Source: Halobium salinum (GTDB taxonomy: Archaea; Halobacteriota; Halobacteria; Halobacteriales; Haloferacaceae). From it: 64,000 nt of DNA. Below are positions 50,121-51,768 of the stretch, piece by piece. Made by a program: the position numbers and the translations under genes. The notes under the pieces are model-generated. The model worked only from the letters and a program-made list of their open reading frames with translations. It was not told the origin of the DNA and did no database searches. Position 1 is the first letter of the stretch. Each line of letters opens with the position of its first letter. The stretch lies in assembly GCF_026586625.1 (NCBI RefSeq), contig NZ_JAODIW010000006.1:1153061-1217060 (forward strand), read 5' to 3'.

Positions 50121-50411
50121 ATGGAAGTCTGGCAGAAGGTCCTCATGGCGGCGGGCATCTGCGTGGCGCCGTCGCTACTGTTCCTCGGGCTCTGGCGGGG
50201 GCTGATGCGGTTGCGCGACGACGACCTGATAGACCGAACCAGCGACGACTGGAACGAACCGTACGTCGGACCGACCATCGTCCCCCGGAGCGTGGTTCCC
50301 GGAAGCGACCAGAAGGTGCCGGCGCGGGTCGACTTCGTCGTGTGTGACCAGTGTGGCGCGCCCAACGCCGAGGGGTCCCGGTACTGTCACGAGTGTCTGT
50401 CGCGAGTATGA
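50121..50411 (+). CDS. Membrane-anchored zinc-ribbon protein
   Basis: This 96-aa protein has one N-terminal helix (VLMAAGICVAPSLLFLGLW), a hydrophilic middle and a C-terminal zinc ribbon (CDQCGAPNAEGSRYCHECLS). It shares this plan with 18369-18641 and appears to belong to the same DUF7577-like group. Function unknown. Confidence 0.8.
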   Translation: MEVWQKVLMAAGICVAPSLLFLGLWRGLMRLRDDDLIDRTSDDWNEPYVGPTIVPRSVVPGSDQKVPARVDFVVCDQCGAPNAEGSRYCHECLSRV

Positions 50412-50429
50412 TGGTGTAAAGAGAACGGT

Positions 50430-50453
50430 GCTGGTGGAATCGACAACACCAGC
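50430..50453 (+). terminator. 7-bp stem-loop after the zinc-ribbon gene
   Basis: GCTGGTG (50430-50436) and CACCAGC (50447-50453) form a stem 19 nt past the stop codon. It is likely the 3' end signal of the zinc-ribbon gene. Confidence 0.45.
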
Positions 50454-50545
50454 TCTGGGTCGGTAGCTCCCGCAAGCCCCCGACCTCTGGACTCGCGCAC
50501 CTCGCTGCGCGCCTCGGTCGTTCGCTTCGCTCACTCCCTGTCGTT

Positions 50546-50786
50546 CGAGAGGCGCTACGCGCCTCTCGTGATGTCGCCGGAGCCAACGGCTCCGGCTGCT
50601 AACCGGAACGCGAGGCGTTCCGGTGATGTCGTCGGAAGCCGTTGGCTTCCGACTGCTTGCCGGACGCAGTCCGGCAATGACGGGAGAGCTTCGCTCTCCC
50701 GAACCACGGTGCTTGCGTCGGTGTGCTTCGTCCAGAGCTGAGCGAGAGCGAAGCTCTCGCGAGCAGCCGGAGCCTCCGCTTCCGGC
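50546..50786. repeat. Tandem array of eight short stem-loops, mostly with trinucleotide loops
   Basis: Eight hairpins follow one another: 50546-50568 (10 bp, loop TAC), 50576-50596 (9, AAC), 50603-50623 (9, GAG), 50631-50653 (10, GTT), 50657-50677 (9, GCA), 50681-50701 (9, TTC), 50742-50760 (8, GAA) and 50766-50786 (about 8 with a bulge). The stems differ in sequence. Spacers of 3-7 nt recur as TGATGTC or TGCTTG-like words, apart from one 40-nt gap (50702-50741). The array fills the 487-nt gap between convergent zinc-ribbon and sucD genes, and no ORF is credible there. Confidence 0.9.
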
Positions 50787-50898
50787 GACCCGGCCCCTTC
50801 CGAACCCCCACCCGACGGTGGTAGGCCAGAAGTCGCCGCACCCCCTACGCTCGGTGAGTCACAAAAGAAAAGCCGCATCCTCGAACCGCGACGGGACC

Positions 50899-51768
50899 CT
50901 ACAGGAAGTCCTCGATGTGGTCGGCGACCTCCTCGGGGGTGTCGCCGACGGGGACGCCCGCGTCGTTGAGGGCGTCGATTTTCGACTGCGCCGTGCCGGT
51001 GCCGGAGCCGGAGACGATGGCGCCGGCGTGGCCCATGCGCTTGCCCGGGGGCGCCGTGCGGCCGGCGATGAAGCCGGCGACGGGCGTGTCCATGTGTTCG
51101 GCGATGTAGGCGGCCGCCTCCTCCTCGTCCTCGCCGCCGATTTCGCCGCACATCACGACCGCGTCGGTGTCCTCGTCCTCCTCGAACAGTTCGAGGGCGT
51201 CGACGAAGTCCGTTCCGATGATGGGGTCGCCGCCGATGCCGATGGCTGTCGTCTGGCCGATGCCGCGGTCGGTGAGGTTCGAGACGACCTGGTAGGTCAG
51301 CGTGCCCGAACGCGAGACCAGCCCGACGTTGCCGGACTCGAAGATGTTGCCCGGGAGGATGCCGAGTTTGGCCTCGCCGGGGGTGATGATGCCGGGGCAG
51401 TTCGGGCCGATGAGGCGGGTGTCGACCTCCGAGAGGCGCTTGTACACCTTCGCCATGTCCTGGGTCGGGATACCCTCGGTGATAGCGACGACGAGGTCGA
51501 GGTCGGTGTCGAGCGCCTCGAACAGCGCGTCGCCGGCGAACGCTGGCGGCACGAACACGACCGAGGCGTCGGCGTCCTCCGCCTCGACGGCCTGGTGGAC
51601 CGTGTCGTAGACGGGGACGCCGTGGACCTCCTGGCCGCCCTTTCCGGGGACCGCGCCGGCCACGACGTTCGTCCCGTACTCTATCATCTGTCCCGCGTGG
51701 AACTTCCCTTCCCCGCCGGTGATGCCCTGCACCACGACGCGGGTGTCGTCGTCGACGAGAATGCTCAT
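50899..51768 (-). CDS. sucD: Succinyl-CoA synthetase alpha subunit
   Basis: This 289-aa protein has the CoA-binding start [42 protein letters not shown] and the phosphorylated-His region [19 protein letters not shown]. It converts succinyl-CoA to succinate in the TCA cycle with ATP or GTP formation. ATG 51768 overlaps the sucC stop. It ends about 110 nt from the hairpin array. Confidence 0.97.

Follow-up and report, generated by a model that had tools for sequence, protein, structure and literature searches.

The window analysed here, the whole 64,000-nucleotide stretch of a Halobium salinum contig, contains a pair of convergent genes, one zinc-ribbon-like and encoding 96 aa (50121-50411, + strand) and the other sucD, encoding the alpha subunit of succinyl-CoA ligase (50899-51768, - strand). 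This gene arrangement bears out a preliminary description made from the letters of the region, the zinc-ribbon Pfam matches lying slightly below the curated cut-offs. Between the two genes lie eight hairpins at 50546-50786, at exactly the coordinates first given. Seven of them are perfect (50546-50568, 50576-50596, 50602-50624, 50631-50653, 50657-50677, 50681-50701 and 50742-50760, + strand), with stems of 8-10 bp and 3-nt loops, while the eighth (50766-50786, + strand) is imperfect. The stems differ between the hairpins and the spacer TGATGTC recurs, both as originally noted, and the exclusion of CRISPR likewise holds, as it is the spacers that are conserved and constant repeats are lacking. 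A known Rfam family was also rejected, the best match scoring 19.1 bits against a cut-off of 55.

The array folds far more strongly than shuffled sequences, both as RNA (z = -8.8 and -9.4 for the two strands) and as DNA (z = -12.1). Genome-wide hairpin statistics, based on 1.257 Mb of the contig (C11) and on model searches, identify it as the one place in that 1.257 Mb where more than three such hairpins are clustered. Among perfect intergenic stems of at least 9 bp in the 1.257 Mb, 35 carry a 3-nt loop, against 0-12 with a loop of any other single length; a C-loop-G closure is present in 32 of these 35 triloop hairpins.

The first reading missed that the array is just the middle part of a larger dispersed element, with its hairpins grouped in units. 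Comparison with the contig using blastn revealed that the flanks of the array, and not the hairpins alone, are repeated many times. The window copy of this structured non-coding element, hereafter referred to as the host, occupies 50471-50813 (+ strand), with the 5' motif CGCAAGCCCCC at 50471-50481 and the 3' motif GGCCCCTTCCG..CCCACCC at 50792-50813. More than 20 full or partial copies were identified across 1.26 Mb of this contig by blastn, motif spacing and profile matches, including those near 175248, 185110, 680299, 798408, 859079, 866495 and 1080429. In simple copies the motifs CGRAAGCCCCC and GGCCCCTTYCG..CCCACCC are spaced 97-104 nt apart; the spacing is 150-161 nt in copies with one extra hairpin pair and 319 nt in the window copy. 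Compared with array-less copies, which read CCTG^CGGTGCTTGCG (^ marks a junction here and below), the window copy carries an extra stretch, TCGTT-[6 hairpins]-AACCA (50541-50706, + strand), at the insertion point CCTG^CGGTGC. Some copies consist only of the outer stem (548495, 607814; locus L339), as if the interior had been precisely deleted. The host appears to be an unnamed, dispersed and covarying structured repeat of ~130 nt.

The arrangement of the hairpins is modular, an outer pair enclosing two inner units, and one more pair occupying a second host site. Hairpin 1 (50546-50568, no strand assigned), CGAGAGGCGC-TAC-GCGCCTCTCG followed by the spacer TGATG^A, is the left half of the outer pair, and hairpin 6 (50681-50701, no strand assigned), CGGGAGAGC-TTC-GCTCTCCCG followed by AACCACGG, is the right half. 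Inner unit a (50574-50628, + strand, 55 bp) reads TC-hairpin 2 (50576-50596)-TGCTA-hairpin 3 (50602-50624)-GATG and was recovered both by a covariance model (1.8e-15) and by pattern match. Unit b (50629-50679, + strand, 51 bp), an independent covariance-model match (8.8e-10), lies in tandem to it and reads TC-hairpin 4 (50631-50653)-TGCTT-hairpin 5 (core 50659-50675)-AATG, its spacers TGCTT and AATG being slightly decayed. Once inner units of the form TC[hp]TGCTA[hp]GATG are subtracted, the outer pair [hp]TGATGA[hp] remains; the outer pair with hairpin 1 is also present at loci L181, L182, L199, L260 and L317-L323. At the second site (50742-50786, no strand assigned), hairpin 7 (50742-50760), the spacer GAGCA and the imperfect hairpin 8 (50766-50786) directly precede GGCCCC, an arrangement repeated in host copies near contig positions 1010739 and 429639. 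In related genera the array follows the plan TGTCGTT[hp]TGATGT(C/T)[hp](T/C)GCTA[hp]GATGTC[hp]TGCTA[hp]GATGA[hp]AACCACG, with different stems and with four or six hairpins.

One alternative is a bidirectional transcription terminator, or an insulator, between the convergent genes, and two observations agree with it, namely the strong folding of both strands and the enrichment of convergent spacers, which hold 18 of the 40 perfect C-closed triloop hairpins (in 8 of 22 spacers) yet only ~14% of the intergenic bases. However, no hairpin followed by a T-run was found within 50380-50930, and the sucD transcript would first meet a T-tract, CTTTTCTTTTG (minus strand, ~50872-50862), lying between the sucD stop and the array. 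In relatives, T-tracts are retained downstream of sucD without hairpins, while the zinc-ribbon/sucD spacers of other genera, one of them only about 66 bp long, are free of both array and host. The terminators mapped by Term-seq in archaea, Haloferax volcanii among them, are U-tracts without hairpins (PMC8716108). Moreover, many copies of these hairpins occupy tandem or divergent spacers, transposons or genes. The array resembles clustered-hairpin or U-tract terminators in placing hairpins near convergent genes and differs from them in having no U-tract after its hairpins and in not being shared by the orthologous spacers of other genera. A terminator or insulator role is therefore most improbable, and the enrichment in convergent spacers may reflect where insertions are tolerated.

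Homologous spacers were compared and the stems tested for covariation, with the result that the orthologous spacers of other genera are array-free and the stems covary among dispersed copies. A sucD-side array in genome G015 (L015) is placed and oriented in the same way with respect to sucD, with another upstream neighbour; at that site the related locus L339 retains a mere short remnant, and L341 has no match to the stretch past the sucD end. The G015 array was therefore left out of a locus-by-locus covariance test, for which the dispersed copies were substituted.

Of the 348 unit pairs left free by the search pattern, 338 are Watson-Crick, compared with a shuffled expectation of 213; the remainder consists of 2 G.T, 5 A.C and 3 other pairs. 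A selected alignment of the unit shows double changes in 14 of 20 pairs and no single-sided changes, but as it was chosen for perfect stems the pattern-free count is the fairer measure. Versions of the hairpins with one mismatch are at background level, with almost none observed. The loops, counted in perfect hairpins, are also constrained: of 46 second hairpins, 40 have a loop that matches R-N-A or the complementary T-N-Y, against a background of 17% (p 8e-25), and the same rule applies to 25 of 40 intergenic C-closed triloops overall (p 2e-10) and to 6 of 55 in coding regions. DNA triloops of the C-GNA-G type are unusually stable. Judged from these sequence patterns, the near absence of G.T pairs and the C-[RNA/TNY]-G loops suggest pairing as DNA rather than RNA, and point to DNA folding on either strand, or to correction of stems at the DNA level, in preference to selection on one RNA. 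The earlier suggestion of selection on folding thus stands insofar as pairing is kept while the stems change, whereas the roles proposed with it (terminator, mRNA stabiliser, small RNA) are unsupported; the presence of the same units in the ends of transposons and within a protein gene, and the scarcity of G.T pairs, speak against an mRNA stabiliser or discrete RNA. Covarying stems in intergenic DNA are usually taken as evidence for RNA, and the DNA folding suggested here by the lack of wobble pairs, the loop rule and the sites of insertion calls for caution in RNA-discovery pipelines.

RNA-level selection could nevertheless act on the host, which would then be a structured non-coding RNA with the hairpin pairs as variable expansion helices. 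The 5' arm of its stem P2, CTCTGGAC (50485-50492, + strand), forms an inverted repeat with GTCCAGAG at 50730-50737, and the homologous stem covaries among copies. In 13 copies the outer stems P1 and P2 are 92.7% paired, with double changes in 12 of 17 pairs and variants such as CGAAAG/CTTTCG, CGGAAG/CTTCCG, GCAAAG/CTTTGC and CCGAAG/CTTCGG, a result matched by 0 of 500 shuffles; the consensus fold of the host has 33 pairs, of which 22 are double-changed, and includes some constant G-U. Several copies in genome G152 (L317-L321 and L323) carry TTATAA-like boxes ~45 nt upstream of CAAAGCCCC, which suggests that some host copies are possibly transcribed as discrete RNAs. Against RNA-level maintenance of the hairpin pairs stand their presence at transposon ends and within a gene, away from the host, the near absence of G.T from their stems, the lack of a TATA-like box at the window copy and the lack of an Rfam match above threshold, and this explanation is considered quite unlikely.

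A further explanation dispenses with selection, the stems being kept perfect by correction at the DNA level (through template switching, or through mismatch repair acting on extruded hairpins) and the array being a neutral palindrome-prone repeat. It accommodates the near absence of one-mismatch stems, the wholesale replacement of loops over constant stems, and loop changes that resemble hairpin inversion plus one substitution (for example GAA/TTT and TCC/GGT in G152). Correction alone, however, leaves the conserved spacers, the discrete insertions and the loop rule unexplained, and an identical pattern would be expected from a transposase that requires stems to be perfect, as with the TnpA-REP enzymes of two bacteria, which lose cleavage with a single stem mismatch (PMC8266576). 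It is accordingly regarded as a possible, though doubtful, account.

The commonest form of the inner unit, TC-[9-10 bp hairpin]-TGCTA-[9-10 bp hairpin]-GATG, measures 51-58 bp. An untied pattern, fixing part of one hairpin and the spacers, gave 106 matches in 46 of 148 family genomes and 14 genera, and a reversed control gave 0 matches. The covariance model, whose E-values for the unit are rough, matched 151 of 194 class genomes and 62 of 66 haloarchaeal genera, and placed the unit at 17 distinct positions in its own genome with E<1e-3, two of them inside the array.

Filled and empty sites were found at the ends of TnpB-type (IS605/IS1341-type) transposons and in a carbonic-anhydrase gene, rather than at the locus of the window copy within its own genus. 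Filled transposon ends read TTGAGGGTG^TC[hp]TGCTA[hp]GATG^GGGCTT versus the empty TTGAGGGTGGGGCTT; the unit-free transposon sequence CTTGAGGGTGGGGCTTTGATGTGGACTC occurs at 18 places and its filled form is CTTGAGGGTG^TC..GATG^GGGCTTTGATGTGGACTC. The gene beside these sites is TnpB (Pfam), and insertion within CCCCACCCT..AGGGTG^GGG next to it corresponds to the near-terminal palindrome of an IS605-type transposon. In the filled/empty pairs the unit is flanked by GGTG on the left and GATG on the right; as the two differ, GATG is part of the unit and the target is not duplicated. In the transposon ends the unit follows G(G/A)TG and terminates in GATG. A 58-bp unit frameshifts the carbonic-anhydrase gene (Pro_CA, Pfam) in two species (G035, G107); it lies at about 1473-1531 in L249 and L250, and its sharing by two related species with small loop differences implies an old shared insertion. 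By contrast, an identical four-hairpin block at three loci with different flanks in G041 indicates recent spread of that block. Units also stack in tandem, with two in L233 and three in one spacer of L313, the longest stack of the unit seen.

Other hairpin families were also encountered. A second type of mobile hairpin pair (L236, L238), with the spacer CGCACA and ends GACGTT, occupies positions after GCGTT in these TnpB transposons too and has its own filled and empty sites (CAGGCGTT^..GACGTT^GATTCGG). On contig C11, near-identical pairs GCCAGAAACC / GCCAGAACGC with the spacer TGGATA and T-rich flanks occur at 341735, 514460, 904973 and 1057991; their stems are identical and their 3-nt loops differ, including GGA vs TCC, a difference that inversion of the hairpins would produce. 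In Halorubrum and a MAG, triloop hairpins of 7-8 bp form arrays (L087 6232-6316, L097 6281-6493, L043 6218-6302, L075 6152-6190) that lie in frame inside an apparent kinase-like protein-coding gene and encode repeated VEHGS..SR peptides.

The recurrence of the modules across many genera, the covariation of the stems, the existence of both filled and empty sites and the disruption of a protein gene make it fairly likely that the array is a pile-up of ~55-bp non-autonomous two-hairpin insertion elements nested in the dispersed structured host. The array itself probably arose as a by-product and has no function dedicated to sucD or the adjacent gene. The unit would insert 3' of a GATG-like site (GATG, GGTG, CATG), and, since its right end carries GATG, each insertion would recreate the target and permit tandem stacking. 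Two inner units would thus have entered the spacer of the outer pair, the outer pair the host, and a further pair the second site of the host. Both spread and selection may act on DNA-folded hairpins, as in single-strand transposition of the IS200/IS605 or REP type, with the mobilising enzyme presumably supplied in trans. A Y1_Tnp domain (PF01797), present in 103 of 148 family genomes, was not detected in the genome carrying the window. A link between unit number and Y1 TnpA was rejected, because across 70 family genomes the two numbers do not correlate (rho 0.15, p 0.21), and no transposase has been connected with the unit. From this absence and the lack of correlation, the enzyme may have been lost, borrowed or be of another kind.

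More tentatively, the units may constitute a class-wide ~55-bp family that moves as folded single-stranded DNA, is recognised by shape (a perfect stem and a C-[RNA]-G triloop) and not by sequence, and targets the hairpins in the guide-RNA-coding ends of TnpB transposons, which its members would thereby silence naturally. On the pile-up reading in general, what was loosely a 'structured intergenic region' would become a defined and searchable mobile unit in most haloarchaea, and would supply specific substrates with which to look for the enigmatic enzyme behind the movement of mini-repeats in these archaea. No earlier description of the unit was found in the literature searched, which did not extend to subscription papers and ISfinder.

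Among known systems, SMR-A of Haloquadratum walsbyi is, like the unit, a transposase-free haloarchaeal mini-element with an unknown mobiliser, and both insert into near-terminal palindromes of IS605-type transposons with no target-site duplication (PMC3119063). SMR-A elements are ~110 bp long, >95% identical and bounded by terminal inverted repeats (PMC3119063), whereas the unit measures 51-58 bp, has two separate hairpins with diverse compensatory stems, is class-wide and stacks in tandem. Terminal-only PATEs, or core-deleted IS605-type elements (HqIRS46, ISHwa23, 52 bp; PMC3119063), share with it a length of about 52-58 bp, two near-terminal palindromes and the absence of target duplication; unlike theirs, the stems of the unit are not conserved in sequence, and no autonomous IS with unit ends was identified, none of the four TnpA loci inspected being flanked by them. 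The unit has the subterminal hairpins (A and B) and the fixed short one-sided target motif (a GRTG-like 5' flank) of PATEs, while the Y1 (HUH) TnpA expected of a PATE-bearing genome was not found in its own; identity with PATEs proper was rejected, as length and uniformity differ from the published descriptions. Bacterial REP dimers or REPINs and CGTC-tagged REPs, the latter without a dedicated transposase (PMC3733652), are likewise short palindrome pairs spread in trans with short conserved tags beside the stems (PMC3116915, PMC3733652, PMC8266576), and some REP systems need perfect stems (PMC8266576). The haloarchaeal unit differs from them in its 3-nt loops, in having no GTAG tag and no linked RAYT gene found, and in its own tags TC, TGCTA and GATG, with a GATG end and insertion after GATG-like sites.
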